This document shows, piece by piece, positions 4,241-32,578 of a stretch of 64,000 bases of DNA; position 1 is the first letter of the stretch; the number at the start of each line of letters is the position of its first letter. The DNA lies in the IMG/VR virus record IMGVR_UViG_3300042540_001822, positions 62,001 through 126,000 of that record. The stretch is one strand, 5' to 3'. The translations under genes and the position numbers were made by a program. This stretch comes from a virus. The notes under the pieces were generated by a model that worked only from the letters and a program-made list of their open reading frames with translations, was not told the origin of the DNA and did not search any database.

Positions 4241-4549
4241 TTATAATAGTTGAATTTCCTTTTTTACATCTAACCAAAATTGGTAGTTACCGAACTCCTC
4301 TTTTAATTTTCCGTTTTCTTCCAAGTAATTCACTATTGGCTCAAATTCAATAGCACTATCTCCAAAAGCTTTTCGCCATTGAGCAACGGTCACCATTTGG
4401 TTATCTTCCATTCCGTCAATTCTAAAAAATCCATAGTGAGCATCTAACCACTTGCCCTCTACAACATGACCACTTAAGTTTGTGAATTTGAATTTAAGTG
4501 AGTTAAATCCTTTTTCTTTAGCATATTCTTGTAGTTCTAAAATTCTCAT
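4241..4549 (-). CDS. Cassette hypothetical protein
   Basis: This 102-aa protein starts at the ATG 'MRILELQEYAKEKGF'; the frame extends upstream only through the half attC-like site. It has a hydrophilic alpha/beta pattern with 'GHVVEGKWLDAHYGFFRID' and no recognised family. It is the last gene of the cassette cluster, and the half-site ends 4 nt before its start. Confidence 0.65.
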   Translation of the reverse strand: MRILELQEYAKEKGFNSLKFKFTNLSGHVVEGKWLDAHYGFFRIDGMEDNQMVTVAQWRKAFGDSAIEFEPIVNYLEENGKLKEEFGNYQFWLDVKKEIQLL

Positions 4550-4552
4550 TTT

Positions 4553-4597
4553 AATTGGGTTAGGGGTTGGGCGTGGATGAATGTGCGAGTTATCGGC
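4553..4597 (-). repeat. attC-like half-site
   Basis: On the minus strand it holds the left core GCCGATAAC-TCG and a CCCAACCCCTAACCC tail, with no matching right core before the next start codon. Its core is the exact complement of the core that opens the preceding cassette (4910-4918). Confidence 0.55.
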
Positions 4598-4607
4598 AAC
4601 CCTACGA

Positions 4608-4868
4608 CTACTCTGTAGCAAGTTTTATAGCATTGACTAAAGGCATTACTCCTTCGCCTCCATTTTGAGAAAGCATAAATTCAGGATAACGACCTTCATC
4701 TGCCAATTTCTTAAATTGTTCTTTTGCCCATTCACAAGCAGCAAGTAATTCATCAGCTACTTTCTTATCTACATACTCGCCTGTTTGGTCATTTGGTTTA
4801 CTTACTTTGTATCCTACAAATAATTGCGGGCTGTAAGTTAATTTTAAAGGTTCTTTACAATTGTTCAT
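4608..4868 (-). CDS. Cassette hypothetical protein
   Basis: This 86-aa acidic protein contains 'YSPQLFVGYKVSKPNDQTGE' and 'KVADELLAACEWAKEQFKKL', a beta-hairpin followed by a long helix. No family is recognised. It is a clean single-gene cassette: the start lies about 40 nt after one attC-like core, and the stop lies 11 nt before the complementary core. Confidence 0.7.
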   Translation of the reverse strand: MNNCKEPLKLTYSPQLFVGYKVSKPNDQTGEYVDKKVADELLAACEWAKEQFKKLADEGRYPEFMLSQNGGEGVMPLVNAIKLATE

Positions 4869-4909
4869 TTTATGTTTGTTTTTAAGTTAATAATTCCGAA
4901 AGAAGGGCA

Positions 4910-4974
4910 GCCGATAACAGCACCTACCAAAAAGGTGGGGGTTGGGGGGTTAGACAAATATGCGAGTTATAAGC
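4910..4974 (-). repeat. attC-like site (complete)
   Basis: Minus strand: core GCTTATAAC-TCG, ATTTGTC, a C-rich centre, a short hairpin (acctacc / ggtgggg), then GTTATCGGC. The 65-bp length and the opposed cores fit a minimal attC architecture. Confidence 0.6.
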
Positions 4975-4976
4975 AA

Positions 4977-5165
4977 TTATTTTGCCTCAATACCATCCCA
5001 ACAAGACTTACAGCAGTATCCATCAAACTTTTTGTTGTTATGAAAGGTGTGACAGTTACGGCAAAATAACTGTCCGCTTCGCCTTATAACAACAGGTTTG
5101 TGAAATAAACCGCTTTCGATTTGTCCGTAAGTTGGTAGTGATTTGAATGTTCTGTTATTCTTCAT
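4977..5165 (-). CDS. Cassette zinc-ribbon-like small protein
   Basis: This is a 62-aa protein if it starts at the ATG at 5165. The C-terminal half has CRNCH...CCKSC, a four-cysteine pattern that could bind zinc. The first ~30 codons run through the long attC-like site (5081-5214), so a later non-ATG start is possible. The function is unknown. The stop is 2 nt from the next core. Confidence 0.55.
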   Translation of the reverse strand: MKNNRTFKSLPTYGQIESGLFHKPVVIRRSGQLFCRNCHTFHNNKKFDGYCCKSCWDGIEAK

Positions 5166-5214
5166 ATATTTCGTTGTTAAATGTTTACTTCACAAACCTG
5201 CAAACCGTTAGCAG
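5081..5214 (-). repeat. Long attC-like site
   Basis: A 134-bp imperfect palindrome. Its outer arms are near-perfect: acaggtttgtgaaataaac (plus) pairs with gtttacttcacaaacctgc at 17 of 19 positions. The end cores are GCTAACG and GTTATAAGGC on the minus strand. Long sites of this kind resemble the VCR class of attC. Confidence 0.6.
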
Positions 5215-5223
5215 AAATAAAAA

Positions 5224-5379
5224 TTACTCCTGCAATGCTTCCAACTCATATCGTACCAAAGCCATTTCGTCAATTGCTCTGATTTGTTCTTCAATCTTTT
5301 CACGTTCTTTAATCAATCTGATTATTTCTTCGTTGTCTGTTACTTTTGTCCAATCTATCATGTCAGTAATTTTTATCAT
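5224..5379 (-). CDS. Small coiled-coil cassette protein
   Basis: This 51-aa ORF starts 'MIKITDMIDWTKVTDN' and ends 'VRYELEALQE'. The middle (EEIIRLIKEREKIEEQIR) is a clear amphipathic helix or coiled coil. The stop is 10 nt from the core of the long attC-like site. It shares its start context with the gene at 5443-5829, because both follow copies of the same 74-bp repeat. Confidence 0.6.
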   Translation of the reverse strand: MIKITDMIDWTKVTDNEEIIRLIKEREKIEEQIRAIDEMALVRYELEALQE

Positions 5380-5444
5380 TTGTGTTTAATTTTGTATTAG
5401 TGCGCTCTAAACAGAATTTACAATTCCCTTTGTGGGTTAATACT
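5371..5444. repeat. 74-bp direct repeat, copy 1
   Basis: Identical to 5821-5894, offset by 450 bp. It holds the 3' end of the lipoprotein gene frame (coding for ..HKGNCKFCLERTN..) and the start codon of the following gene. Confidence 0.8.
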
Positions 5445-5829
5445 ACCAATCAATTTCAATCGAATATTCACCTGCTTCAATTAAACCTCTTTTATAAAGG
5501 TCATTTGCAACAGTATGTATGTCTGGATAAAAATTTCTATCCCACCATAACTTAATACCATAGTCGGTTCTACCAGCAACAGGTTCATTAGGGTCACGTT
5601 CTAACCACTTTTCAAATTTTACACCCATAGTTTTACCATTTATTATTTCAGGTATTTCATCATTCATTTCATCATCACGAGTGTATTCACTTGGTATTGT
5701 AAGATGGAATATTCCCCTTGACCAACAACCATTTTGTTGTTGAAAACTATACGGCTTACCGTAAGTGTCTGAAACTAATTTATTCCAATCACTCACTTCA
5801 ATCATTTTTACATTTTTAATTTTTATCAT
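5443..5829 (-). CDS. Hypothetical protein
   Basis: This 128-aa protein contains 'WLERDPNEPVAGRTDYGIKLWWDRNFYPDIH' and is rich in aromatics and acidic residues. No family is recognised. The start overlaps the end of the lipoprotein gene by 14 nt, so the two are probably translated together. Both its ends lie in the 74-bp direct repeat, which suggests the gene arrived or was duplicated as a unit. Confidence 0.7.
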   Translation of the reverse strand: MIKIKNVKMIEVSDWNKLVSDTYGKPYSFQQQNGCWSRGIFHLTIPSEYTRDDEMNDEIPEIINGKTMGVKFEKWLERDPNEPVAGRTDYGIKLWWDRNFYPDIHTVANDLYKRGLIEAGEYSIEIDW

Positions 5830-6061
5830 TTGTGTTTAATTTTGTATTAGTGCGCTCTAAACAGAATTTACAATTCCCTTTGTGGGTTAATACTGTTTGG
5901 TTACCCCAATCGCCAAGTAAATACTCGCAACTATCTACCTCTACTATTATTAATGGGTCTTTGTCTTTTCTTACCACAAAGCCGGATGTGTTTACTTCGC
6001 GGCAACCGCAAGAAAGAATAGTCATTAGTAGTGTACTGATAAAGGGGAATGTTGGTTTCAT
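5816..6061 (-). CDS. Small predicted lipoprotein
   Basis: This 81-aa protein starts at the ATG 'MKPTFPFISTLLMTILSCGC', a short signal peptide with a lipobox-like I-L-S-C. The mature part has two more Cys (C-K-F-C) near the end. Its start overlaps the stop of the tiny membrane gene at 6058-6180 by 4 nt (ATGA), indicating coupled translation. A spanin pair was considered, but the partner lacks a periplasmic coiled coil. Its role is unknown. Confidence 0.6.
   Translation of the reverse strand: MKPTFPFISTLLMTILSCGCREVNTSGFVVRKDKDPLIIVEVDSCEYLLGDWGNQTVLTHKGNCKFCLERTNTKLNTNDKN
5821..5894. repeat. 74-bp direct repeat, copy 2
   Basis: Identical to 5371-5444. It contains the C-terminal codons of the lipoprotein gene and the overlapping start of the gene at 5443-5829. 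Confidence 0.8.
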
Positions 6062-6180
6062 AAGGTGAAATAAGCAATAAGACACAAGATGGCAAGCACA
6101 ACGAATAGTGCCAAAAAAACAGGTAAGCACCCGTATTCTTCAATCATGTGACCGATGGCGTTTAACTGGGATAGAATCAT
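6058..6180 (-). CDS. Tiny membrane protein
   Basis: This 40-aa ORF (MILSQLNAIGHMIEEYGCLP..) has one strong transmembrane segment over its last 22 residues. The ATG directly abuts an attC-like half-site (6183-6224), and the stop overlaps the lipoprotein start as ATGA. The coupling supports a real gene despite its size. Confidence 0.55.
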   Translation of the reverse strand: MILSQLNAIGHMIEEYGCLPVFLALFVVLAILCLIAYFTL

Positions 6181-6182
6181 GG

Positions 6183-6224
6183 GTTTAGGGGTTTGGGGGT
6201 TAGACAAATATGCGAGTTATACGC
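6183..6224 (-). repeat. attC-like half-site
   Basis: Minus strand: GCGTATAAC-TCG, ATTTGTC, then CCCCCAAACCCCTAAACCC. No right core follows before the next ATG. The TAA of the core is also the stop codon of the gene at 6217-6450. Confidence 0.5.
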
Positions 6225-6450
6225 AACCTTGACGAAAAACAATCAACTGACTGCGACATTCTTCATAAAGCCCATAATCATAGTCATCTCCTTTTCTTGA
6301 TTTGTTTAAAAAGAAATCTACTGCGACTATTCCACTTTCAATTGCTAATAATCTATGGGCTTTCATATCACCCACTCCAAATTGTGCTATTAAAAAACTA
6401 TCAATCAATGATTGTGCTATTTCTTTTGCGTGTTCTGTTCTGTTGTACAT
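6217..6450 (-). CDS. Cassette hypothetical protein
   Basis: This 77-aa, mainly helical protein (MYNRTEHAKEIAQSLIDSF..) contains 'GVGDMKAHRLLAIESGIVAV'. Its stop codon is formed by the TAA inside the attC-like core. Starting 36 nt from the previous core, it fills its cassette exactly, a typical integron arrangement. No family is recognised. Confidence 0.7.
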   Translation of the reverse strand: MYNRTEHAKEIAQSLIDSFLIAQFGVGDMKAHRLLAIESGIVAVDFFLNKSRKGDDYDYGLYEECRSQLIVFRQGCV

Positions 6451-6485
6451 ATTTATTTTGTTTTAAAATTATAATCAAAAAGGCT

Positions 6486-6557
6486 GCTTATAACAGCAGT
6501 TTGGCAAGATGTGGGGGTTGGGGGAAGGAAAACTGGACAAATAAAGGAGTTACCTGC
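6486..6557 (-). repeat. attC-like site (complete)
   Basis: Minus strand: GCAGGTAAC-TCC, TTTATTTGTCCAG, a C-rich centre, CTTGCCAAACTGCT and GTTATAAGC. The 72-bp length fits attC. Confidence 0.6.
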
Positions 6558-6561
6558 AAGG

Positions 6562-6936
6562 CTACGAAACTGCATAGACAGACATTCCTATAATAACCAG
6601 AGCGTGTAACAATTGGTCAAATCCAAACACAATCCAATGCCATTTATTAGCAGGTGATTGTAGTGAAGGAAACCAGCCATTCATTCTACCTTTCCAAACA
6701 TCAATTATAAAGTGTGTTACCCATTGGAATATTACTAAGTAAGCCCAATCGTTTGTAAAGCCAATAAACCATCCTAAAACAAGCGACATTAACATAGTGT
6801 GCATTGCAGCGTGAATGAATATTGGAAACAATGGCTTTCCAAGTCGCTTTGCATTAAGCATCCAAGCATTTGATAAATGTGTGTAATCTGCTAAAAAATG
6901 GCAGATAAATAATCCGATTAAAATTTGTGTTTGCAT
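6562..6936 (-). CDS. DUF3307-like membrane protein
   Basis: This 124-aa protein has four hydrophobic segments (about residues 5-20, 42-62, 68-82, 103-122). Conserved His and Asp residues lie in them: 'CHFLADY', 'HAAMHTMLM', 'WVTHFIIDVWK', 'FDQLLHALVI'. This pattern matches the DUF3307 membrane family; its biochemical role is unknown. The gene is a single-gene cassette: a half-site lies before the start, and a complete site begins 5 nt after the stop. Confidence 0.75.
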   Translation of the reverse strand: MQTQILIGLFICHFLADYTHLSNAWMLNAKRLGKPLFPIFIHAAMHTMLMSLVLGWFIGFTNDWAYLVIFQWVTHFIIDVWKGRMNGWFPSLQSPANKWHWIVFGFDQLLHALVIIGMSVYAVS

Positions 6937-6956
6937 TTGTATTTTAAATTAAATCG

Positions 6957-6989
6957 TTTAGGGGTTGGACAAATAAACGAGTTAGTGAT
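6957..6989 (-). repeat. attC-like half-site
   Basis: Minus strand: ATCACTAAC-TCG, TTTATTTGTCC, AACCCC; the right core is absent. It lies between the stop at 6999 and the ATG at 6936. Confidence 0.5.
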
Positions 6990-6998
6990 AATTAAAAA

Positions 6999-7247
6999 TC
7001 ACAAAATTGTACAATTTTCAATTTCATAAACCTTTGGATGTTTTTCTTTTAGTTTATTTATAGCATTTTCATAATTTTCAGCATAAATTAATTCATAACA
7101 AATTGGATATTCGTCACCAATACCTAAACTAAAAGAAAGTAAATAAATATTAACCTTTTGTGAATTTTGTGATTTTTCACTCTCCCTAACATCAGATATA
7201 TTCAATTCCGAGTTTTCTTTAAAACTCTTAATTATGTTCTTTTCCAT
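6999..7247 (-). CDS. Cassette hypothetical protein
   Basis: This 82-aa protein has residues 30-80 ('VNIYLLSFSLGIGDEYPICY', then 'AENYENAINKLKEKHPK') that look like a beta-alpha-beta fold. No family is recognised and no signal peptide is seen. A core half-site follows 10 nt after the stop. Confidence 0.65.
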   Translation of the reverse strand: MEKNIIKSFKENSELNISDVRESEKSQNSQKVNIYLLSFSLGIGDEYPICYELIYAENYENAINKLKEKHPKVYEIENCTIL

Positions 7248-7272
7248 ATTCTATATTTTTTATCATCAACCG

Positions 7273-7680
7273 TTATGAGAAATGTTTTGTCAAAGCATCC
7301 TCTAATATTTGTATAGCTGTTTCTAATCCGCATTCCATCCCTTCTCTCCATTGTCCTTCACTATAATCTAATGGGGGTGATAATTGCCTACTACTTTCAA
7401 GTTGGCTTTGTAAATCTGCCAAAACACTTCTCATAACATCAGGTTGTTGCAATGTGGTTTCGGTGGTATGTGTTACATCTTCCATTTTAAGAAATTTTTC
7501 GTATTTTTCTTCCGTCATTCCGATTGCTTGTCTTTCCCATTCATGTTCACCTTGTTCACCATAAATTTCATATTCAGTCATAGGAGATTTTTTAACATCA
7601 TTGACCATAAAAATAAAAAAAGCAATTCCTATTAAAAGGAGAACAACCAATCCAATAACTGCTAGTAATGTGATATCCAT
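7273..7680 (-). CDS. Small membrane-anchored protein
   Basis: This 135-aa protein has one N-terminal transmembrane helix (residues 4-27) and a soluble acidic tail ending 'EGQWREGMECGLETAIQILE'. Unlike most cassette genes it has its own Bacteroidota-type promoter 36 nt upstream. That promoter could read through the downstream cassettes to 4241. Confidence 0.7.
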   Translation of the reverse strand: MDITLLAVIGLVVLLLIGIAFFIFMVNDVKKSPMTEYEIYGEQGEHEWERQAIGMTEEKYEKFLKMEDVTHTTETTLQQPDVMRSVLADLQSQLESSRQLSPPLDYSEGQWREGMECGLETAIQILEDALTKHFS

Positions 7681-7715
7681 AAAATTTACTTAGTTTTATT
7701 TTCGTATTTGCGTTT

Positions 7716-7724
7716 GCAAATATA
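7716..7724 (-). promoter_or_regulatory. Bacteroidota-type promoter
   Basis: Minus strand TATATTTGC at 36 nt before the ATG at 7680, in an AT-rich context. It is the only clear promoter inside the cassette cluster. Confidence 0.6.
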
Positions 7725-7784
7725 CAAATAAGTTTCGAGATTTCCAAATCTTACCTACAAAAATACATCATATTCCTGGTGTGT

Positions 7785-7823
7785 GGATGAAGGGAAATTG
7801 GACAAATAAACGAGTTATAGCAC
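7785..7823 (-). repeat. attC-like half-site
   Basis: Minus strand GTGCTATAAC-TCG, TTTATTTGTCC, AATTTCCC; the right half is missing before the promoter of the next gene. Confidence 0.5.
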
Positions 7824-7825
7824 AT

Positions 7826-7981
7826 TTAATTATCGCTTAACGACTGGCCGAAAACTATACAAGCTAAACATACAGGAAGATACCATTTCCAATTATCTGT
7901 TTGTGTTATCCAAAGCGATGATAAAATCATCCCACTTGTGATTATTGCAACTGTGTTTAAAAATTTCTTTACTTTTTTCAT
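7826..7981 (-). CDS. Tiny two-helix membrane protein
   Basis: This 51-aa ORF starts 'MKKVKKFLNTVAIITSGMIL' and ends '..VFGQSLSDN'. Two hydrophobic stretches are separated by 'TQTDNWKW'. It fits exactly between two attC-like cores: the start is 16 nt after one and the stop 3 nt before the other. The fit supports it as a cassette gene. Confidence 0.6.
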   Translation of the reverse strand: MKKVKKFLNTVAIITSGMILSSLWITQTDNWKWYLPVCLACIVFGQSLSDN

Positions 7982-7996
7982 CGTTTTAAAATTAAC

Positions 7997-8074
7997 GCCT
8001 TATAACAGCAAATTTGGAAAATGTAAAAATTGGTTTCATGGGTTAGGGGTTGGGCGAATGTGCGAGTTAGGTGC
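7997..8074 (-). repeat. attC-like site (complete)
   Basis: Minus strand: GCACCTAAC-TCG, a C-rich centre with CCCAACCCCTAACCC, TTTTCCAAATTTGCT and GTTATAAGGC. 78 bp. Confidence 0.6.
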
Positions 8075-8306
8075 AAGGCTCTGCCAACCATCCACCACAA
8101 GCAGACCAAACCACCCAACCACCATAAGCAACGTGCATACCGCCAAAAAACTTTGAAACAGATACAGACCAAGTGAAGTAACCTTCTTCAAGTGTTTGTC
8201 CTGTATCAAAATGTTTAAACTTATTACCCAAATGTTTTTTGGCTCGTTCCAAGACAAAAGCCCTGCAACTAACACGGGTTTGGCAAGATTGAGGGGTTGG
8301 TTTCAT
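8067..8306 (-). CDS. Cassette hypothetical protein, start uncertain
   Basis: This frame ends in 'GGWVVWSACGGWLAEPCT', and its stop codon is the TAA of the attC-like core. The only ATG (8306) lies inside the upstream attC-like site; a TTG at 8252 is a plausible alternative. Other frames are open here too, so the reading frame is the best guess rather than certain. It is aromatic- and glycine-rich with no recognised family. Confidence 0.4.
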   Translation of the reverse strand: MKPTPQSCQTRVSCRAFVLERAKKHLGNKFKHFDTGQTLEEGYFTWSVSVSKFFGGMHVAYGGWVVWSACGGWLAEPCT

Positions 8307-8361
8307 GGGTTAGGGGTTGGGGGTTGGGAAGGAAAACTGGACAAATAAACGAGTTATGTGC
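8265..8361 (-). repeat. attC-like site (complete, 97 bp)
   Basis: Minus strand: GCACATAAC-TCG, TTTATTTGTCCAG, a C-rich centre, CTTGCCAAACCCGT and GTTAGTTGC. The centre reads on the plus strand as four consecutive G-tracts with TTA/TT spacers (8308-8329), a G-quadruplex-capable, telomere-like string. Confidence 0.6.
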
Positions 8362-8365
8362 AATT

Positions 8366-8608
8366 TTAAGACACCCACTTATGACACCTTTTACAAGCGA
8401 TTTCTTTTGGCTCGTTAGTGTCAGGCGTGTATTTCCTATGTCCTACAATTTTGCACCATAAAGGCAAAAAAGTATCTTCAAACATTAGTTTGCGCTGGTG
8501 TTTTATTACAGACCAAAAACGGTCATAGTAATATTTTTTGTTGTCAGGATACTTTCTTGCTAATCGCAGTATCCAAAATAAATCGCAAGTTTCTCTTGAT
8601 GTTGACAT
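8366..8608 (-). CDS. Cassette protein with C-terminal zinc-ribbon-like motif
   Basis: This 80-aa protein is helical at its N-terminus (MSTSRETCDLFWILRLARKY). The C-terminus has C-K-I-V-G-H and A-C-K-R-C-H, a possible Cys/His zinc site. It is the first gene of the cassette run, with the core 4 nt after its stop. The function is unknown. Confidence 0.65.
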   Translation of the reverse strand: MSTSRETCDLFWILRLARKYPDNKKYYYDRFWSVIKHQRKLMFEDTFLPLWCKIVGHRKYTPDTNEPKEIACKRCHKWVS

Positions 8609-8973: not shown

Positions 8974-8996
8974 AAGGATATGTGGGTTTAATTGTG

Positions 8997-9069
8997 TGAT
9001 CCCGACTGGACTCGAACCAGTAACCTACTGCTTAGAAGGCAGTTGCTCTATCCATTGAGCTACGGGACC
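8997..9069 (-). tRNA. tRNA-Arg(UCU)
   Basis: A 73-nt cloverleaf reads from 9069 leftward. The acceptor is GGTCCCG/CGGGATC, the D-arm contains TAGCTCAATGGATAGAGCA, the anticodon loop is CTTCTAA with anticodon UCU, and the T-loop is GTTCGAGTC. The 3' CCA is not encoded, so it must be added after transcription. It decodes AGA, a codon that is abundant in these AT-rich genes. Confidence 0.95.
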
Positions 9070-14394: not shown

Positions 14395-14428
14395 CTTCGA
14401 ATGACTGCGGTTGGGAATATATAAGGAC

Positions 14429-15247
14429 ATGAAACACCTCCAATCCTTTTCCCTGTTCGAAGCCCAAACTTCTGTCCTGACCACAGACCAAGAGGCATTT
14501 TTGAATGAATACATCAAAGGAGCATGGTCGGTCAATCCAACAACAGGTCTGGTCGATGTGGAGGGAAATTTTGCTTGTAGTTCCAAAAGGCTGAAGTCTC
14601 TGTCGGGCATCTCGTTCGGACATGTGAGTGGGAATTTCGCCTGTTTCAACAACCAACTGACCTCCCTGAAAGGAGCACCACAGACGGTGGGTGGGGGTTT
14701 CGATTGTTCTTATAACGATCTCACTTCCCTGGAAGGAGCACCACAGACGGTGGGTGGGGATTTCAATTGCTTTTATAATTACAATCTTAAATCCTTGGAA
14801 GGAGCACCTCGGACTGTGGGTGTGAATTTCGATTGTTCTTATAACGATCTCACTTCCCTGGAAGGAGCACCTCAGACGGTGGGTGGGGATTTCAATTGCT
14901 TTTATAATTACAATCTTAAATCCTTGGAAGGAGCACCTCGGACTGTGGGTGTGAATTTCCTTTCTGACAAATTCCAATTAGAAGAAGGCGAATGGAACAT
15001 GCAAGGATGGCTGGAGGTTTTGAACACAGGAACGGAAGAAGCCAAAAAATTGATTTCCACCCTGCCATGGCTACAACCGGACTGGTGGAACTTGGAACTC
15101 CAACGGGATCCCGGTAAAACAGTTCATCTATTGGGGTCTTTATGGAAACATATGCCAAAGGACATGCAATCTGCAATTAAGATTCCCGGGGGATATGAAG
15201 ATGATTTCGAACTGTTTTCTGGATTTAACGAGCTGGGCTTGTTTTAG
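14429..15247 (+). CDS. Repeat paralogue 1: 5 leucine-rich-like repeats
   Basis: This 272-aa protein starts at the ATG 'MKHLQSFSLFEAQ', a start shared by all paralogues. It has three parts. The N-terminal signal has L-F-E at residues 8-10 and a conserved cap with 'WSVNPTTGLVDVEG'. Next come 21-residue repeats of the type C-x2-N-x-L-T-S-L-E-G-A-P-Q-T-V-G-G-x-F. The C-terminal ~95 residues carry 'LPWLQPDWWNLELQRDPGKT' and end GFNELGLF. The repeats resemble leucine-rich-repeat solenoids used for binding. A 129-bp segment (14702-14830) is duplicated in tandem with one visible mismatch. Confidence 0.9.
   Translation: MKHLQSFSLFEAQTSVLTTDQEAFLNEYIKGAWSVNPTTGLVDVEGNFACSSKRLKSLSGISFGHVSGNFACFNNQLTSLKGAPQTVGGGFDCSYNDLTSLEGAPQTVGGDFNCFYNYNLKSLEGAPRTVGVNFDCSYNDLTSLEGAPQTVGGDFNCFYNYNLKSLEGAPRTVGVNFLSDKFQLEEGEWNMQGWLEVLNTGTEEAKKLISTLPWLQPDWWNLELQRDPGKTVHLLGSLWKHMPKDMQSAIKIPGGYEDDFELFSGFNELGLF
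14702..14959 (+). repeat. 129-bp tandem duplication inside repeat gene
   Basis: 14702-14830 and 14831-14959 match except for one visible base (cac-c-a versus cac-c-t in the Ala-Pro codons). Each copy encodes two repeat units (43 codons). This is a very recent in-frame expansion. Confidence 0.85.
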
Positions 15248-15262
15248 AGGATATATAGGAGA

Positions 15263-15886
15263 ATGAAACACCTCCAATCCTTTTCCCTGTTCGAAGCCCA
15301 AACTTCTTTCCTGACAACCGACCAAAAGGAATTTTTAAATGAATGCACCAAAGGAGCATGGTCGGTCAACCGGCAGACCGGTCTGGTCAATGTGGAGGGG
15401 AATTTTGACTGTAGTTTCAAATCACTAAAGTCTCTGCCTGACATCTCGTTCGGACACGTCAGTGGTCATTACGGCTGTTTCAACAACCAACTGACCTCCC
15501 TCGAGGGAGCACCCCAGACGGTAGGCGGGGGTTTCTACTGTTCCAACAACAAACTGACCTCCCTCGAAGGATCCCCACAGACTGTGGGTGGGGATTTTTG
15601 GTGTGACGAATTCGAATTAGATTCAGGCAAATGGAACATGCAAGGATGGGTGGAAGTTCTGAACACAGGAACACCAGCAGCCCAAAAATTGATTTCCACC
15701 CTTCCATGGATCCAACCGGACTGGTGGAACCTGGAACTCCAACGGGATCCCGGGAAGACGGTTCATCTATTGGCCACTGCATGGAATCACATGCCAAAGG
15801 ACATGCAATCTGGAATTAAGATTCCTCGGGGATATGAAGGTGATTTCGAACTGTTTTCCGGATTTGACGAGCTGGGCTTGTTTTAA
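15263..15886 (+). CDS. Repeat paralogue 2: 2 repeats
   Basis: This 207-aa protein is one of the shortest members, with only two full repeats between the shared cap and C-terminal domain (ends GFDELGLF). A GATATATA box (15250-15257) lies 5 nt upstream of the ATG, and the gene starts 15 nt after paralogue 1. Its cap uses 'WSVNRQTGLVNVEG', the variant also found in paralogues 3, 6 and 8, so caps form at least two exchangeable types. Confidence 0.9.
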   Translation: MKHLQSFSLFEAQTSFLTTDQKEFLNECTKGAWSVNRQTGLVNVEGNFDCSFKSLKSLPDISFGHVSGHYGCFNNQLTSLEGAPQTVGGGFYCSNNKLTSLEGSPQTVGGDFWCDEFELDSGKWNMQGWVEVLNTGTPAAQKLISTLPWIQPDWWNLELQRDPGKTVHLLATAWNHMPKDMQSGIKIPRGYEGDFELFSGFDELGLF

Positions 15887-15903
15887 AGGATATATATAAG
15901 GAC

Positions 15904-16716
15904 ATGAAACACCTCCAGTCCTTCGTACTTTTCGAAGCCCAAACTTCTGTCCTGACACCCCGCCAAAATAAATTTTTGAATGGATGCACCAAAGAAACAT
16001 GGTCGGTCAACCGGCAGACTGGTCTGGTCGATGTGAAGGGAAATTTTGACTGTAGTTTCAAATCACTAAAGTCTCTGCATGGCATCTCGTTCGGAAACGT
16101 CAGTGGTCATTTTGGCTGTATATACAACCAACTGACCTCCCTGAAAGGATCACCCCAGACGGTGGGTGGGAATTTCAACTGTTCCACCAACCGACTGACT
16201 TCTCTAGAAGGAGCACCGCAGAAGGTGGGTGTGAGTTTCGACTGTGGTGTAAACAAATTGACCTCCTTGAAAGGATCACCACAGACGGTGGGTGGGATTT
16301 TCTCCTGTTACAACAACCGACTGACCTCTCTCGAAGGAGCACCTCAGAAGGTTGGCTCGAATTTTTCTTGTACTTTTAACGATCTCACTTCCCTGAAAGG
16401 AGCACCTGAGACGGTGGGTGGGTATTTTACGTGTGACGAATTCAAATTAGATTCGGGTGAATGGAACATGGAAGGATGGGTGGAGGTTTTGAACACAGGA
16501 ACACCAGCAGCCCAAAAATTGATTTCCACCCTTCCATGGCTCCAACCAGACTGGTGGAACTCGGAACTCCAACGGGATCCAGCGAAAACAGTTCATCTAT
16601 TGGGGTCTTCATGGAAACATATGCCAAAGGACATTCAATCTGCAATTAAGATTCCTCGGGGATATGAAGGTGATTTTGAATTGTTTTCTGGATTTGACGA
16701 GCTGGGGTTGTTTTAA
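15904..16716 (+). CDS. Repeat paralogue 3: 5 repeats
   Basis: This 270-aa protein starts MKHLQSFVLFEAQ (L-F-E at 8-10). Repeat units alternate K-G-S-P and E-G-A-P types, suggesting duplication of a two-unit block. The C-terminal domain is close to that of paralogue 2, with 'GTPAAQKLISTLPW'. Box and spacing are as in its neighbours. Confidence 0.9.
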   Translation: MKHLQSFVLFEAQTSVLTPRQNKFLNGCTKETWSVNRQTGLVDVKGNFDCSFKSLKSLHGISFGNVSGHFGCIYNQLTSLKGSPQTVGGNFNCSTNRLTSLEGAPQKVGVSFDCGVNKLTSLKGSPQTVGGIFSCYNNRLTSLEGAPQKVGSNFSCTFNDLTSLKGAPETVGGYFTCDEFKLDSGEWNMEGWVEVLNTGTPAAQKLISTLPWLQPDWWNSELQRDPAKTVHLLGSSWKHMPKDIQSAIKIPRGYEGDFELFSGFDELGLF

Positions 16717-26424: not shown

Positions 26425-26997
26425 ATGAAACACCTGAAATTATTCGAAAATTTCACGAAAGATGATTTGGATAATTTGATTTCGGGATTTGAGGAACTCG
26501 GAATTAACAAAAAGAAATTTCTCAGAATTAAATTTGTTGGTATTTACGTAACTGAATCTGATAGAACAAATGAAGCTGATTTCAGATTTCATAATGATAG
26601 AATTTTGAGGATCCCAATTTCGGAATTTGAAAAAGAAGATTTAGAACCCGGCAAAGAATCTTTTTCGAAAACCCTCCAAGATTCGGTTTTATATGCCATC
26701 AGAAATGGTGAAGCCGAAGTAAATCCAGATTGTGTGGGTGAATTATATATTGGCGAAACTTTTGATCCTAGTACCTTAATCTCCGTCGCCGAAAAAACAC
26801 AAACCCTGGATGGATTTTGGGATCTTGTCACCCAATATTTATATGATGTTGGAACTGATATCATTTATGACCATTTCAGTAATGAAGGTATAATGGAAGA
26901 ATTCGCTGATTTTTTCTTTGACGAATGCAAGAATTTAAAGCCAAAATTTTGGATAGAAAAAGAAGGTGAAAAATGGGGGGAAATCAGTAAAATATAA
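26425..26997 (+). CDS. Signal-bearing GFEELG-motif protein
   Basis: This 190-aa protein starts MKHLKLFENFTKDDLDN, with L-F-E at 6-8, followed at once by LISGFEELGIN. The rest is acidic with no recognised fold. It links the two families: the signal is that of the repeat proteins, and the GFxELG motif that ends those proteins sits here near the N-terminus. Confidence 0.8.
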   Translation: MKHLKLFENFTKDDLDNLISGFEELGINKKKFLRIKFVGIYVTESDRTNEADFRFHNDRILRIPISEFEKEDLEPGKESFSKTLQDSVLYAIRNGEAEVNPDCVGELYIGETFDPSTLISVAEKTQTLDGFWDLVTQYLYDVGTDIIYDHFSNEGIMEEFADFFFDECKNLKPKFWIEKEGEKWGEISKI

Positions 26998-27001
26998 AGA
27001 C

Positions 27002-27754
27002 ATGAAACATCTTCTCCCATTTAGGATATACGAATCCCAGACGACTTCAGGTCTGACCGAGGAACAGCAGGAATTCTTGAACAAATACACCGAAGGAACC
27101 TGGTCTGTCAATCCAACAACAGGTTTGGTGGACGTTCAGGGTGATTTTAACTGTAGTTCCGAAAGACTGAAGTCTCTGCTGGACATCCATTTCGGACATG
27201 TGGTTGGGAATTTCAACTGTTACGACAACCGACTGACCTCGCTGGCGGGAGCACCCCAGACGGTGGGTGGGAATTTCAACTGTTACAACAACAAACTGAC
27301 CTCCCTGGAAGGATCACCTCAGACGGTGGGTGGGGATTTCAATTGCTTTTTTAACGATCTTAAATCCTTGGAAGGAGCACCTCAGACGGTGGGCGGGAAT
27401 TTCGATTTCTCTCCTAACGATCTTAAATCCTTGGAAGGAGCACCCTATACGATAAATGGGATTTTTATTTCTGACGAATTCAAATTAGATGCTGGCAAAT
27501 GGAACATGGCAGGATGGCTGAAGGTTCTCAACACAGGAACAGAAGAAGCCAAAAAATTGATTCTCACCCTGCCATGGCTCCAACCGGACTGGTGGAACTT
27601 GGAACTCCAACGGGATCCAGGCAAAACAGTCCATCTGTTGGGGTCTTTATGGAACCACTTGCCAAAGAACATTCAATCTGCAATCAAGATTCCTAAGGGA
27701 TATGAAGATCAGATGGATCTGTTTTCTGGATTCGACGAGCTGGGTTTGTTTTAG
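27002..27754 (+). CDS. Repeat paralogue 10: 4 repeats
   Basis: This 250-aa protein starts at the ATG 'MKHLLPFRIYESQ'. Earlier in-frame codons overlap the previous gene. The last two repeats are the 'LKSLEGAP' type. The C-terminus uses 'GYEDQMDLFSGFDELGLF', a variant shared with the gene at 32634. Confidence 0.9.
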   Translation: MKHLLPFRIYESQTTSGLTEEQQEFLNKYTEGTWSVNPTTGLVDVQGDFNCSSERLKSLLDIHFGHVVGNFNCYDNRLTSLAGAPQTVGGNFNCYNNKLTSLEGSPQTVGGDFNCFFNDLKSLEGAPQTVGGNFDFSPNDLKSLEGAPYTINGIFISDEFKLDAGKWNMAGWLKVLNTGTEEAKKLILTLPWLQPDWWNLELQRDPGKTVHLLGSLWNHLPKNIQSAIKIPKGYEDQMDLFSGFDELGLF

Positions 27755-27769
27755 AGGATACATAAGGAC

Positions 27770-28963
27770 ATGAAACACATTCAATCCTTTTCCCTGTTCG
27801 AAGCTCGGAAGACTTCAGGCCTGACCCAAAAGCAAAAGACTTTCTTGACCAAATACACAATGGGCAGCTGGACATATAATCCGGCCACTGGGATGGTAGA
27901 TGTGGAGGGAAATTTTGACTGTAGTTTCAAATTCATAAAGTCTCTGCCTGGCATCTCGTTCGGACATGTGAGTGGGAATTTTGATTGTTCCGGCAATCAG
28001 CTGACCTCCCTGGCAGGAGCACCCCAGACGGTGGATGGGGGTTTCTTCTGTTCCAGCAACCAACTGACCTCCCTGGAAGGAGCACCTCAGACGGTGGATG
28101 GGACTTTCAACTGTTCCAACAACAAGCTGACCTCCCTGGAAGGAGCACCTCAGACGGTTGGCGGGGATTTTTCCTGTACTTATAACAATCTCACTTCCCT
28201 GGAAGGAGTACCTCAGACGGTAGGAGGTGATTTCTACTGTTATCACAACCAACTGACCTCCCTGGCAGGAGCACCACAGACGGTGGATGGGGATTTCTAC
28301 TGTGAAAACAACCAGCTGACCTCCCTGGAAGGAGCACCCCAGACGGTGAACGGGAATTTCCACTGTTTCTACAACCGGCTGTCCTCCCTGGAAGGAGCAC
28401 CCCAGACGTTGGATGGGGATTTCGAATGTGGATTTAACCAACTGACCTCTCTGGCAGGAGCTCCCCAGACGTTGGATGGGGATTTCGGATGTGATAACAA
28501 CCGACTGACCTCCCTAGAAGGAGCTCCCCAGACGTTGGATGGGAATTTCAAATGTGATAACAACCGACTGACCTCCCTAAAAGGAGCACCCCAGACGGTG
28601 GGTGGGTATTTCATGTGTTTCTACAACCCGCTGTCCTCCCTGAAAGGATCACCCCAGACGGTGGTTGGGAATTTTTGGTGTGACGAATTCGATTTAGATC
28701 CAGGCAAATGGAACATGGAAGGATGGCTGGAGGTTCTGGACACTAGATCAGAAGAAGCCAAAAAATTGATTCTCACCCTTCTATGGCTCCAACCGGACTG
28801 GTGGAACCAGGAACTCCAAAGGGATCCAGGGAAAACAGTTCATCTATTGGCCACTGTATGGAAACATATGCCAAAGGACATGCAATCTGCAATTAAGATT
28901 CCTAAGGGATATGAAGATGATTTCGAACTGTTTACTGGATTTGACGAGCTGGACTTGTTTTGA
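27770..28963 (+). CDS. Repeat paralogue 11: 11 repeats, longest member
   Basis: This 397-aa protein starts MKHIQSFSLFEARKTSG (L-F-E at 8-10). Eleven consecutive repeats form a ~240-residue solenoid. Three adjacent units with the variant Q-T-L-D-G-D/N-F point to local unit duplication. The C-terminal domain ends GFDELDLF, the only member with D in place of G. Its high GC relative to the next gene (29072) is conspicuous. Confidence 0.9.
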   Translation: MKHIQSFSLFEARKTSGLTQKQKTFLTKYTMGSWTYNPATGMVDVEGNFDCSFKFIKSLPGISFGHVSGNFDCSGNQLTSLAGAPQTVDGGFFCSSNQLTSLEGAPQTVDGTFNCSNNKLTSLEGAPQTVGGDFSCTYNNLTSLEGVPQTVGGDFYCYHNQLTSLAGAPQTVDGDFYCENNQLTSLEGAPQTVNGNFHCFYNRLSSLEGAPQTLDGDFECGFNQLTSLAGAPQTLDGDFGCDNNRLTSLEGAPQTLDGNFKCDNNRLTSLKGAPQTVGGYFMCFYNPLSSLKGSPQTVVGNFWCDEFDLDPGKWNMEGWLEVLDTRSEEAKKLILTLLWLQPDWWNQELQRDPGKTVHLLATVWKHMPKDMQSAIKIPKGYEDDFELFTGFDELDLF

Positions 28964-29021
28964 TTAATGCCCAGATAGAAAATTATTATTGGATAGAAGC
29001 AAAAAGTTATTTTGCTGAGAA

Positions 29022-29029
29022 GATATATA
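29022..29029 (+). promoter_or_regulatory. GATATATA box
   Basis: GATATATA followed by AATTTATTTGC, 42 nt upstream of the ATG at 29072; it opens the next, AT-rich unit. Confidence 0.45.
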
Positions 29030-29071
29030 AATTTATTTGCTAAAATAAAAAAAAATTAAACACAAACAAAT

Positions 29072-29728
29072 ATGCCATTGATTTCTTGGAATTCTTTTTG
29101 TTCTAGTAATATCGAATATTTAAATGAATCCGATGAATTAGAAACATTAATTGGGGGTTTTGAAGATTTGGGTTTTTCCGAAAAAAGATGGTCCTGGTCT
29201 GAAATTGAATCCGCCTGGCATAAAATTATGTGGGAAGGAATTTTTAATTTTGATGTTAACCACACCATATCAAGATTAAATTGCACATTGGCAGGCAATA
29301 ATTTAAGGGTTGAAGTCTACAAACCATTTTCTGTAACTATCAATCAAAAAGTTTTCATCAAATACTTTACCTCTAATTTACAAAAAATTCCTTCTTCTGG
29401 AAAACGAATTGAAAGTTTCACCTTAAACCAAATTTTAGAAACTTTAGATAAAATGGCAAGGGGGTTTTCCATACAATACGGACAAATTGAAGAAATTTTT
29501 GTTCATCTATTGGATGAATTGCGCCAGGATGAAAAAAACCCCAATCTTTGGTTGAAACTTAAGGTAGATTTGGACCCCGAAACGGATCAGGCGGGAAACT
29601 CTAATTTCCGATTATCTTTGTCAGAAATGAAAGTAGATCCTAATTGGGACCAGGTGGCGGATATAATGTGTGATCCAAGAATGCTTAAAGAATTTAAACG
29701 CAATTTGTATGAAAAAGCGGGAATCTAA
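29072..29728 (+). CDS. GFEDLG-motif protein
   Basis: This 218-aa protein has the N-terminus 'MPLISWNSFCSSNIEYLNES' with L-N-E, then 'LIGGFEDLGFSEKRWSWSEI'. With the next two genes it forms a sub-family: signal-like start, GFE[DE]LG, W-S-W/Q-I, then a beta-rich middle and a helical end. No enzymatic motif is recognised. Confidence 0.75.
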   Translation: MPLISWNSFCSSNIEYLNESDELETLIGGFEDLGFSEKRWSWSEIESAWHKIMWEGIFNFDVNHTISRLNCTLAGNNLRVEVYKPFSVTINQKVFIKYFTSNLQKIPSSGKRIESFTLNQILETLDKMARGFSIQYGQIEEIFVHLLDELRQDEKNPNLWLKLKVDLDPETDQAGNSNFRLSLSEMKVDPNWDQVADIMCDPRMLKEFKRNLYEKAGI

Positions 29729-30362
29729 AATTAGGTCGTTCTCTTCCTTTCGAGAATCTGAGGATTTTGACGATGTTTTATTCGGATTCGAGGAACTTGG
29801 TTTATCAGAAAAAACCTACTCTTGGTCACAGATTTTGGAAGTTTGGGGTAATTTACGTTGGCTAAAAACAATTGTGGAAATAAGTATCCAAAAGCGGGCA
29901 GCACAAAATCGAAAACAATTGTCTGTAAAATTTGACGAACGTCAGATAAAACTAGAAATTGAATTTGAAGGAAGATTCGAGGTAGAAATTGATGTGGATT
30001 TTTTATCAGAAGAATTAGAAAATTCATTGGCTGTTCTTCCCGTTGATAAGACAACTGGATCTGAACCTAGATTTACGGAAAACCACATAATCGAAACTTT
30101 GTCTCATTCCGACCTGGAAGAACAGATTCAAGATGCAATTAATGATAGACAGCAAAAAGAAAATTCAAACTGGTGGGTTGAAATATATAATTACAAAACA
30201 GGAGATCCGGAGAATGATGTTATACATAATGGACCGGCGGAAATTGATTTTCATTTAGAAGCTGAATTGGCTGTAAAAAAAACAGAGTTTAATGAGATTA
30301 TGATGTCCGAAAAAATGGTAAAATGGCTCAAAAAAACACTTGAAAAATCAACATATACATGA
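29709..30362 (+). CDS. GFEELG-motif protein
   Basis: This 217-aa protein starts at the ATG 'MKKRESKIRSFSSFRESED', which overlaps the previous gene by 20 nt. It carries 'LFGFEELGLSEKTYSWSQIL'. The signal region has F-R-E instead of a strict [IL]-x-E, so cleavage is less certain. It is a paralogue of 29072. Confidence 0.75.
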   Translation: MKKRESKIRSFSSFRESEDFDDVLFGFEELGLSEKTYSWSQILEVWGNLRWLKTIVEISIQKRAAQNRKQLSVKFDERQIKLEIEFEGRFEVEIDVDFLSEELENSLAVLPVDKTTGSEPRFTENHIIETLSHSDLEEQIQDAINDRQQKENSNWWVEIYNYKTGDPENDVIHNGPAEIDFHLEAELAVKKTEFNEIMMSEKMVKWLKKTLEKSTYT

Positions 30363-30970
30363 AAACATTTTTTTCCTTTCTAGAATCTGAAGATCTTAAC
30401 AACCTAGAGGACCTTTTGTCCGGATTTGAAGATCTGGGTTTACAAGATAGAAAATGGGATGAGGACCAAATTAGAGAATGTTTGGAGGAATTAAACTGGG
30501 ATGATTGTCTGACTTTCTTTGTAGAAGATTTTTTTATAGACTGGAGAGGACCGAATGTGAAAACCAAGACCAATTTAAACGGTTCAGAATTTTCAATTAA
30601 ACCAGATATCGAATGTAAAATTGGGGCTCATTTAGATGTTAAGAAATTATCAGAAACCTTAGCAGAAAAATTACAAAAAAAACCTAAAACCACCCAAAAT
30701 AAAAATTTGTTCACGATGGAAGAAATTCTCAAAGGCTTCAATTTTGTTAAATGGGGAAACATATGGTCAGATTTTATGGATGATATAAGTGACAATTATA
30801 AATCTTGGGTTAAAATCAAAATGCAAGTTGAGGTTGAAGATTTTGCTAGCAATTATCCAATAAACATCGAAACTAGAATTTTGTTTGACGACTCGGACCA
30901 AGCCCCTTTCAAAATGAAAGACTGGGACCACATTAATCGAGTTATTCAGAAAATTTTTATAGTTAACTAA
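30359..30970 (+). CDS. GFEDLG-motif protein
   Basis: This 203-aa protein starts 'MKTFFSFLESEDLNNLEDLL' with GFEDLG at about residues 21-26, and overlaps the previous gene by 4 nt (ATGA). It is the third member of this local sub-family. The body has 'KWDEDQIRECLEELNWDDC' after the motif, matching the W-x-x-x-Q/E-I pattern of the others. Confidence 0.75.
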   Translation: MKTFFSFLESEDLNNLEDLLSGFEDLGLQDRKWDEDQIRECLEELNWDDCLTFFVEDFFIDWRGPNVKTKTNLNGSEFSIKPDIECKIGAHLDVKKLSETLAEKLQKKPKTTQNKNLFTMEEILKGFNFVKWGNIWSDFMDDISDNYKSWVKIKMQVEVEDFASNYPINIETRILFDDSDQAPFKMKDWDHINRVIQKIFIVN

Positions 30971-30993
30971 ATGAAAATTGATATTAATCATCT

Positions 30994-31329
30994 ATGAAAC
31001 ATCTAGCGAATTTTTTACTTTTCGAGAAGGTTATACTTCAGGGTGATAATATGAAGGAAAGAGCCGAAATTCTAAGAAAAATTATTCGAGGAAAATTAGA
31101 ACCAGATGATGTTATCAACAAAGACAAATTTGATTACAAGAAGTGGTCACAAACAATCAAAGAACTTAAGGCAATTTATTTAAGAAAAAAATTTACAATT
31201 ACGGATTCTCTAAATTTGCTTTATGTCGAACCTTCTTACCTTCCTGCCTATATAAAATTTGAAAAACCTAAACTGAAGGAAAAAAAGAAATCACCCGAAA
31301 AAGAAAAGGAAAAAACTAAGACAAAGTAG
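30994..31329 (+). CDS. Small signal-bearing protein
   Basis: This 111-aa protein starts MKHLANFLLFEKVILQGD (L-F-E at 9-11). It is basic, with a Lys/Glu-rich tail (residues 90-111) that looks like a charged helix or disordered tail. Such a charge fits an internal protein packed with DNA, as in T4, but no fold is recognised. Confidence 0.75.
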   Translation: MKHLANFLLFEKVILQGDNMKERAEILRKIIRGKLEPDDVINKDKFDYKKWSQTIKELKAIYLRKKFTITDSLNLLYVEPSYLPAYIKFEKPKLKEKKKSPEKEKEKTKTK

Positions 31330-31427
31330 TAAAACTTCCCAATTTAGGTAAATTTTAAGTTTTTTTCCAAGAATGTGTGAAACTTAAAATTCTCTCCATC
31401 ATAGAAAAGGTGTTTAAACTCAATTTT

Positions 31428-31631
31428 ATGTCAAACACAACCAAAAAACCCCAAGTGTCCTACCAGGACAAAATGAACGTCATCCACAGCAAAAGCAGAA
31501 GGGGTGATCAAAAAAGAATTTCCGAGATGACCGGTTATTCTGCCTCTTATGTGTCTGAAGTTTTGTCGGCTCGGTACAACAACGATGAAATCGTTAACTG
31601 CGCCTACAAAATTATGAGACCCCGGAAGTAA
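31428..31631 (+). CDS. Small helix-turn-helix protein
   Basis: This 67-aa protein starts at the ATG 'MSNTTKKPQVSYQDKMNVIH'. Earlier frame extensions use a GTG with no support. Residues 20-50, 'SRRGDQKRISEMTGYSASYV', form an HTH matching the C-terminal domain of the regulator at 3453-4043. It is a single-gene unit with a strong terminator, likely a small transcription regulator. Confidence 0.75.
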   Translation: MSNTTKKPQVSYQDKMNVIHSKSRRGDQKRISEMTGYSASYVSEVLSARYNNDEIVNCAYKIMRPRK

Positions 31632-31646
31632 TTTTCTTCCAACTTC

Positions 31647-31668
31647 AAGCCCCACTTCGGTGGGGCTT
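31647..31668 (+). terminator. Rho-independent terminator
   Basis: A 9-bp stem (aagccccac / gtggggctt) with a ttcg tetraloop is followed by eight T. It closes the small HTH gene. Confidence 0.9.
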
Positions 31669-31689
31669 TTTTTTTAAATTTAAATCCAA

Positions 31690-32295
31690 ATGGAAATAAT
31701 TATCAAAAAAGACAGACCCAATTATTTTAAATCTCATCTTAAAAAATTAAAGACGGGAAGGGGGGTAATTTTACAAGCAGGGGAAGGAAAATCTGCCAAA
31801 GAAATTTTGTCTTGCTGGCCAGGTACAGTATTCTTGGTAGACTCGTGGTCTGATTCACAAGATATTGAAATAAGAGTACCGGGGATGGCGGGAGAAACAG
31901 TTTTGCTTCGGGCCTTGGACAGAATTAAGTTGTATGGAGATCGAGCTATTTTGATCAGGACCAGCACCGAAAAAGCGGGCAATTTATTTGGTCCAGAAAG
32001 TCTTGATTTTGTTTTTTTACAGGACATTACAACCTATGAAGAGGTCAAAAGCACAATCAAAGAGTGGATTCCTAAAATCAAACCAGGAGGTGTGATTGGC
32101 GGATTTGGATTTTTAAATTCTAATTTACAAAATTCCGGAAAAGAAAATGGTAACAATCAAATGATTTGGAACGAAGATGGGGTATTTTTGGGTTACTTTG
32201 GTGTTAACCGTGCAGTTAGAGAAACTGTAGGTTTTAGATTTGATGTAAGCGTAACCTCGGAAGAGGTAGGATCATGGTTTGTTACTCTTGAGTAG
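31690..32295 (+). CDS. SAM-methyltransferase-like protein, degenerate
   Basis: This 201-aa protein has a Rossmann-like layout of class I methyltransferases. There is 'GVILQAGEGKSAKEIL' (glycine loop, motif I), 'VFLVDSWSD' (strand 2) and 'LDFVFLQDITTYEEV'. 'WIPKIKPGGVIGG' is the usual post-motif segment. Motif I reads A-G-E-G-K-S rather than E-x-G-x-G, so binding or activity may be altered. It overlaps the convergent gene at 32282 by 14 nt. Confidence 0.65.
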   Translation: MEIIIKKDRPNYFKSHLKKLKTGRGVILQAGEGKSAKEILSCWPGTVFLVDSWSDSQDIEIRVPGMAGETVLLRALDRIKLYGDRAILIRTSTEKAGNLFGPESLDFVFLQDITTYEEVKSTIKEWIPKIKPGGVIGGFGFLNSNLQNSGKENGNNQMIWNEDGVFLGYFGVNRAVRETVGFRFDVSVTSEEVGSWFVTLE

Positions 32296-32578
32296 GAGGT
32301 TCTTCACCCCTATTTCCATTTAATTTTTTTTCCTTTTGAATCTCCGTGAGTATGTAACCAGAAATGGCGAACTCAATCCCAGCCCAAATAGCTATATCTG
32401 AAGAAGTGGCCTCGGAGTGATTTTCAAGCAGCCAATAAACCATTCCCCATTGCCCGATGATAAAGGCTATGGAAGATTCTAGCCTTTTTTTGGAAAAAAA
32501 AGAAGATTGAGAGGTATAAATACCTAAAAGTTCTTTACCTAGCCAATATAGCCGATCTTTCCAAAATTCAATTTTCAT
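32282..32578 (-). CDS. Small membrane protein
   Basis: This 98-aa protein has two hydrophobic segments (about 38-52 and 62-80) and a charged C-terminal tail. It lies alone on the minus strand between rightward genes and shares an AT-rich box region (32592-32599) with the divergent gene at 32634. No family is recognised. Confidence 0.65.
   Translation of the reverse strand: MKIEFWKDRLYWLGKELLGIYTSQSSFFSKKRLESSIAFIIGQWGMVYWLLENHSEATSSDIAIWAGIEFAISGYILTEIQKEKKLNGNRGEEPPTQE

Follow-up and report, generated by a model that had tools for sequence, protein, structure and literature searches.

Probable integron-type gene cassette arrays with attI-like ends and inverted cassette polarity in a large phage

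The stretch of DNA analysed here (the window; 64,000 nucleotides) corresponds to bases 62001–126000 of a 219,475-base virus record (IMG/VR IMGVR_UViG_3300042540_001822), which is linear and may be incomplete. Near one end of the window lies an array of small open reading frames (ORFs) separated by short elements with integron-type cores and, as described in the initial annotation, the small ORFs of the array all point one way; they are on the minus strand (Table 1). Among large ORFs of the record, matches were obtained to proteins of T4-type replication, namely topoisomerase II, DNA polymerase pieces, helicase, primase, exonuclease, RNA ligase, thymidylate synthase and ribonucleotide reductase. 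Given these T4-type replication genes and the IMG/VR status, the record is regarded as that of a phage. Terminase (Terminase_6N) and capsid (Phage_cap_E) genes were looked for in the record and neither was found; the record may therefore be incomplete or its structural genes divergent. The host is probably a member of Bacteroidota, as judged from the attC and attI families described below. The record has two main blocks of small, swappable cassette-like genes, and the window array is one of several.

The window array was originally interpreted as gene cassettes separated by attC sites. The integron-type material was substantiated, whereas the assignment of the window sites as attC hairpins was not. 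The cores GCnnnTAAC and GTTAnnnGC are present at the annotated places. Bases 4589–4597 are exactly complementary to 4910–4918, the units with ends at 4974 and 8074 have nearly exact counterparts of this pairing, and, as read from the sequence, the core TAA serves as the stop codon of two genes (8306–8067 and 6450–6217). However, when four composite sites are folded as single-stranded DNA, z scores relative to shuffled sequences range from −0.62 to +0.62, and the named sites reach at most 18.9 bits under the attC covariance model. Most of the window sites are junctions of attI-like elements and attC half sites, in which a cassette R'' core is joined to a fixed 17-nt sequence resembling the right arm of attI. 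The motif ACAAATNNRCGAGTTA occurs in 6 copies in the array, versus 0.06 expected in the 64-kb window. In two cases, a leader ATG reads via an attC right half into the cassette, which stops at the TAA of R''. In addition to several half sites, the window includes one full attC-like site (5078–5219), the only one with the complete attC architecture; its single-stranded fold is only marginally better than those of shuffled sequences (z −0.98), and its loop contains the start of the next ORF.

Many full attC-like sites lie between the ORFs of a second array, located outside the window at 26.5–39.4 kb of the record and consisting of about 40 small minus-strand ORFs (mean 86 aa). Sites chosen for stem pairing, 20 in all and taken from this record and from related viral contigs, were aligned (alignment A1). 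The architecture expected of attC, i.e., conserved structure with variable sequence, a TAAC/GTTA core, an L''/L' stem and compensatory changes, is found in this set. In this alignment 93% of cells are paired (50% or less with slid partners), with 123 double changes, and covariation is 0.643 versus 0.168 in shuffled alignments; these stem statistics are partly circular because the sites were picked for stem pairing. Neither the invariant T-A stem pair nor the polarity of the sites with respect to the ORF strand was among the selection criteria. No bulged, extrahelical bases were seen in the L arm of the sites. The alignment also includes a recurrent L''/L' position with a G-T wobble on one strand and an A-C mismatch on the other, and T and G recur at −11 of R'' and +11 of R', respectively; these positions are a possible strand mark.

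A simple scan for R''/R' and L''/L' with loose cores gave mostly A/T-rich noise beyond the arrays, and therefore the covariance model was used instead. In the record it detects 12 sites with E < 0.01; every one of them is on the minus strand and lies at 27–46 kb, with none elsewhere. Eleven of these hits lie at 27–39 kb, and the integron integrase model TIGR02249 has no match in the 219-kb record. The array at 27–39 kb agrees with the definition of a cluster of attC sites lacking an integron integrase (CALIN), i.e., at least two attC sites within 4 kb and no integrase, the type of cluster proposed in the initial annotation for the window array. Another full attC site is located outside both arrays, at about 46.0 kb of the record (L011, 5873–6014).

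Cassettes in an integron array begin with bases complementary to their own end and not to that of the neighbouring cassette. Within the phage units, the 10 leading bases match the unit's own end in many cases; pairing across the 20 sites is reliable at the four core positions only. A matching upstream start was found at 9 of the 17 array-end sites of the record, versus 1.75 expected when ends were permuted among sites, and in other viral contigs 14 matches were found versus 2.9 with permuted ends. Thus, as in gene cassettes, unit starts are complementary to their own R'' and not to the neighbour's. Unlike gene cassettes, which consist of an ORF followed by its own attC with crossover at the R' box, the phage units have the order attC–ORF with R'' crossover, as judged from P12002L/S and the polarity counts (see below).

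Past the R'' core of the last ORF, each array ends with the element CTCG(TT/CA)TATTTGTC(C/T)A, whose opposite strand terminates in ACAAATAAACGAG↓TTA or ACAAATATGCGAG↓TTA (the arrow marks the expected crossover). The sequence of this element is maintained across many viral contigs, and no partner arm accompanies it. The phage arm, AAATAAACGAG↓TT, matches the right arm of chromosomal attI in Bacteroidia, TATAARCRAG↓TT. Under a position weight matrix built from 27 chromosomal Bacteroidia sites, with arms picked by eye, the two main phage forms score 11.1 and 9.5 bits and rare variants 2–12 bits, versus a background median of −11.7 and −9.5 or lower for attC arms. As the arm matches this matrix, the array-end element is regarded as attI-like. 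Its right arm at G↓TT is as in the integrons of the group, although an adjacent integrase gene, a further property of attI, is lacking. The element is present in ten copies at record positions 26529–39076. Most of the ten are followed by a near-identical promoter-like stretch (TTCACTTATACACCAGGAATATGATGTATTTG), and two of them have a gene directly before attI without a matching cassette start. A pattern scan of genome contigs for the array-end motif gave 15 hits, approximately the number expected by chance, and by eye none had an array context.

Compared with chromosomal arrays of Bacteroidia, the phage arrays have their ORFs in inverted orientation with respect to the recombination sites. ORFs flanking the sites lie on the same strand as the attC model in 23 cases and on the opposite strand in 1 in this record, and the ratio is 17:0 in other viral contigs (40 to 1 for the viral records combined), versus 16 same-strand and 45 opposite-strand cases in Bacteroidia genomes. 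The attI-to-attC polarity is identical in the phage and chromosomal groups, and only the ORF is flipped. A Vibrio array was considered as a polarity yardstick and set aside, as the attC model gives no match there.

Relatives of this phage's flanking genes, sought in IMG/VR for an empty-site test, were not found; therefore phages P12002L and P12002S and phages sharing the MKPTP locus (see below) were used to study exchange. P12002L is a virulent Polaribacter phage whose attC is active with IntI1, and recombination of P12002L_attC2 with attI1 through IntI1 has been published (PMC9892861). The attC model gives four hits in P12002L (E < 2e-6), one of which may be attC2; each is on the same strand as the ORFs. 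The core block of the two phages is about 99.7% identical, yet they differ by blocks. At four junctions, the two phages share the upstream ORF and its R'' as far as AAC, beyond which their attC sites differ; at two others, the upstream part differs and the downstream part is common from AAC on, being one attC with its ORF in one case and the fixed array-end sequence in the other. As six of the seven junctions are thus at the R'' core, attC travels with the downstream ORF, and the mobile unit is attC–ORF. In a canonical cassette, attC travels with the upstream ORF. The array-end sequence AACAACGGATAAAACAAGTTTTACC occurs at P12002L 37265 and 29239 and at P12002S 36675 with differing upstream sequences, and is possibly these phages' own attI-like site.

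In various phages, the gene MKPTPTDFRRW is preceded either by a phage gene and leader or by a cassette; many different cassettes are found there, ending in the attI-like element and a leader. The idea that the TAACTCG element is a pre-existing empty phage site was rejected, as phages without cassettes at this locus do not have it. Phage L060 also has cassette 8306–8067, there with a full attC after it and not attI; the leader/right-half/ORF block of the junction at 8265–8365 recurs in the same phage.

The same sites have chromosomal counterparts in Bacteroidia. The attC covariance model matches 71 of 395 Bacteroidia genomes versus 3 of 274 control genomes, which are from the class of Vibrio chagasii, and several of the chromosomal matches form arrays adjoining a recombinase. 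In a tyrosine recombinase family of Bacteroidia, a stem-loop just past the stop codon is followed by TATAARCRAG↓TT and then by ORFs; the arm is present in most recombinase loci of the family and is less clear in L179–L181. This recombinase is found in 201 of the 395 Bacteroidia genomes (E ≤ 1e-40) versus 13 of the 274 controls, in which all matches are weak. Its match to the IntI model TIGR02249 is below cut-off and in two pieces, and its best NCBIfam match, NF040815, is near that model's cut-off. According to the IntegronFinder 2.0 paper (PMC9024848), IntI is told apart from other integrases by an extra domain near the C-terminus. The IntI-specific segment (profile positions 180–237) is absent in 18 recombinase sequences and present in two Vibrio IntI proteins and in genome G162. 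The recombinase without this segment is widespread (L179–L183, L215, L216, L219, L221 and L224–L253), and several of these loci have attC-type cassettes. The IntI model itself was of no use as a host marker, scoring above cut-off in 1 of the 395 genomes (G162), alongside which the scan found no attC. By IntegronFinder 2.0, very few complete integrons were found in Bacteroidetes (PMC9024848), and the present results suggest an apparently unrecognised integron-like system in many Bacteroidia.

Taken together, end complementarity, attC covariation in the second array, core-limited block differences in near-identical phages and the lack of an integrase are the grounds for an integron-type reading, and unit boundaries, the attC family, attI-like ends, inverted polarity and R''-core exchange in sister phages are established. 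It is likely that these are integron-type arrays in a large phage without detectable integron integrase, and that a host recombinase appends inverted cassettes at their attI-like 3' ends. The host recombinase would recombine circular attC–ORF units at the G↓TT of the phage attI-like site; the candidate is the host's patch-less tyrosine recombinase (i.e., without the IntI-specific segment), which is similar to XerA and integron integrases and common in Bacteroidia. There is a precedent for crossover at R'', as inverting the extrahelical bases of an attC shifts crossover to the R'' box (PMC2727003). Because the ORF of the phage unit is inverted relative to attC, each new gene would enter co-directionally with phage transcription, at the promoter-distal 3' end of the existing unit, with its own attC before it and a restored attI after it. 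Phage leaders beside the attI-like sites may supply promoters and sometimes a start codon. Bacteroidia and their phages may, at even odds, share a distinct integron lineage with a patch-less XerA-like recombinase, its own attI (stem-loop plus TATAARCRAG↓TT) and its own attC, which phages use in reverse, with multiple attI sites, no recombinase and ORF-inverted cassettes added at operon 3' ends.

Several points weigh against recombinase-driven addition at attI-like ends. The candidate recombinase is not known to act on these sites, and this phage itself has provided no observed case of recombination. Chromosomal attI has an upstream stem-loop that is missing from the phage attI-like arm, and the attI arms were selected by eye. 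The left ends of several phage arrays are fusions of a leader with an attC right half, which a clean integrase reaction does not predict. Cassette-free phage sites at the MKPTP locus are devoid of the attI-like arm, and therefore the arm may move with the cassettes, or with leaders by homologous recombination. Also, the genome set used for polarity is mixed, because at least two of its same-strand loci look prophage- or phage-like: one (L184/L218) is on a contig with a Phage_cap_E gene and another (L186/L214) carries DUF932, DUF3560 and a DNA methylase.

The occurrence in the window of half sites, leader fusions and weakly folding sites, the absence of an integrase from the record and the seventh P12002 junction, which lies inside an attC arm, would also fit relics, i.e., cassettes that entered an ancestor by integrase activity and are now inherited and rearranged only via phage homologous recombination. 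This explanation is rather doubtful, as the array at 26.5–39.4 kb retains full attC sites and exact cassette ends, and P12002L and P12002S differ by units despite their nearly identical core block. It is unlikely that the arrays are an ordinary CALIN of canonical ORF-then-attC cassettes from bacterial integrons, with TAACTCG as a degenerate attC left half and neither inversion nor attI. The cassette cores and complementarity fit such a CALIN, phage CALINs are known, and P12002L_attC2 recombines with attI1 via IntI1 (PMC9892861); however, the TAACTCG element is conserved in sequence, forms no hairpin, has no partner arm and matches the attI consensus, attC goes with the downstream ORF in P12002L/S, and most chromosomal arrays have the opposite ORF polarity. 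Promoter–stem-loop repeats occur in T4-type phages, and the ten element copies, mostly followed by similar promoter-like sequence, and the AACCCC..ATG leader common to many phage genes are compatible with regulatory intergenic elements (promoter/terminator modules) between which genes are shuffled by homologous recombination, but this is improbable, since it predicts neither the start/end complementarity of each gene unit, nor covarying hairpins, nor junctions limited to a 3-nt core between dissimilar arms, nor identical sites adjoining recombinases in Bacteroidia.

The likely integron-type arrays of this phage resemble several known systems. The statement in the initial annotation that such arrays had no standard description needs correction, as phage CALINs, including that of P12002L, have been published (Qi et al., 2023; PMC9892861), with one attI at the start of a phage CALIN, in Shewanella phage M16-3. 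Like those, the arrays described here are attC arrays without integrase, and P12002L belongs to the same attC covariance family; unlike in those, one array comprises about 40 small ORFs, another array is present, attI-like sites are numerous within a single record and the ORFs are inverted relative to attC, and the inverted unit is absent from that description (PMC9892861). With sedentary chromosomal integrons (intI, attI and ORF–attC repeats) they share the attI G↓TT, the R''/L''/L'/R' organization of attC, complementary cassette ends and small ORFs mostly of unknown function. Chromosomal arrays insert cassettes beside attI at the 5' end, whereas the phage arrays lack an integrase, have attI 3' of the ORFs and consist of attC–ORF units. 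The Bacteroidia recombinase–attI–attC loci (L180, L181, L215, L216, L219 and L221) have the same attC covariance family and G↓TT insertion point, there located past the recombinase, and most recombinase loci of the family have the attI right arm, less clearly L179–L181; unlike in phages, the ORFs run away from attI, co-directionally with the recombinase gene. The Bacteroidia recombinases have tyrosine recombinase domains in common with IntI (TIGR02249; VchIntIA), except for the missing IntI-specific segment. A literature search, which did not cover most subscription papers, retrieved no description of ORF-inverted cassettes, multiple phage attI sites or the patch-less Bacteroidia system. Thus, attI anchoring and inverted polarity appear to be new, whereas phage CALINs were already known.

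If cassettes are indeed appended by a host recombinase, phages would actively use integrons and not just carry them passively: even without its own recombinase, a phage could gather small genes from a cassette pool shared with hosts and express them from phage promoters while existing genes remain undisturbed. This raises the question of whether reversal of the ORF relative to attC switches an array from addition at the front to addition at the end. The results also point to an integron-like system in Bacteroidia, a group in which standard survey tools have detected very few complete integrons (PMC9024848).

Table 1. Features of the window array, in order along the minus strand (window coordinates; ↓, expected crossover)
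Feature	Position	Strand	Remarks
First ORF of array, 80 aa, Cys-rich C-terminus	8366–8608	−	
Composite junction: R'' GCACATAAC, attI-like arm, phage leader (AACCCCTAACCCATG), attC right half (CTTGCCAAACCCGT), R' GTTAGTTGC	8265–8365	−	
attI-like site 1, CTGGACAAATAAACGAG↓TTA	8337–8356	+	Crossover expected at G↓TT
Cassette ORF, 79 aa; start codon from phage leader, stop is TAA of R''	8067–8306	−	Also in L060
Weak composite attC-like site, R'' GCACCTAAC ... R' GTTATAAGGC, divergent attI-like arm	7994–8078	−	18.9 bits, E 0.003
Cassette ORF, 51 aa, membrane-like	7826–7981	−	
attI-like site, ACAAATAAACGAG↓TTA	7802–7817	+	
ORF, 135 aa, N-terminal membrane segment; ZapG-like similarity below cut-off	7273–7680	−	
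Cassette ORF, 82 aa	6999–7247	−	
attI-like site, ACAAATAAACGAG↓TTA	6969–6984	+	
DUF3307 membrane protein cassette	6562–6936	−	
Composite junction: R'' GCAGGTAAC, attI-like arm, attC right half, R' GTTATAAGC	6486–6557	−	
attI-like site with one mismatch, ACAAATAAAGGAG↓TTA	6537–6552	+	
Cassette ORF, 77 aa; stop is TAA of R''; start/end cores 11/13 complementary	6217–6450	−	
attI-like site, ACAAATATGCGAG↓TTA	6204–6219	+	
Lipoprotein-like ORF (MKPTFPFISTLLMTILSCGC...), inside ORF frame 5816–6130; end approximate	5850–6061	−	By eye
ORF, 128 aa, relatives in 640–735 kb metagenomic phage records	5443–5829	−	
ORF, 51 aa	5224–5379	−	
Sole full attC-like site of window: R'' CTGCTAAC, long L''/L' stem, R' GTTATAAGG	5078–5219	−	
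Cys-rich ORF (zinc-ribbon-like), 62 aa	4977–5165	−	
Composite junction, R'' GCTTATAAC ... R' GTTATCGGC	4910–4974	−	12.3 bits, fold z −0.62
attI-like site, ACAAATATGCGAG↓TTA	4954–4969	+	
Cassette with exactly complementary end cores; ORF 4868–4608 (86 aa)	4589–4918	−	
Degenerate attI-like site, GAATGTGCGAG↓TTA	4579–4592	+	
Last ORF of array, 102 aa	4241–4549	−	

The cargo was initially described as membrane, lipoprotein and zinc-ribbon-like proteins, and translations read by eye confirm lipoprotein, membrane and Cys-rich cargo. Annotation of the cargo gave DUF3307, one Lar-like match below cut-off and one P-loop-like ORF, and no convincing defence families. The protein of the DUF3307 cassette has a homologue with 55% identity in a Bacteroidia genome (G097), and the 3' end of this cassette, with identical R'', is also present in phage contig L068. 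ORF 5829–5443 is about 70% identical at the DNA level to phage records LR756501–LR756503 and is flanked by a direct repeat of about 75 bp (window 5380–5445 and 5828–5900). An Rfam search found a tRNA and nothing more. A tRNA-Arg (TCT) lies near the 5' end of the array, at window 8996–9069. At window 14400–16700, tandem multi-copy paralogues with leucine-rich-like repeats (LTSLEGAPQTVGG) are present.

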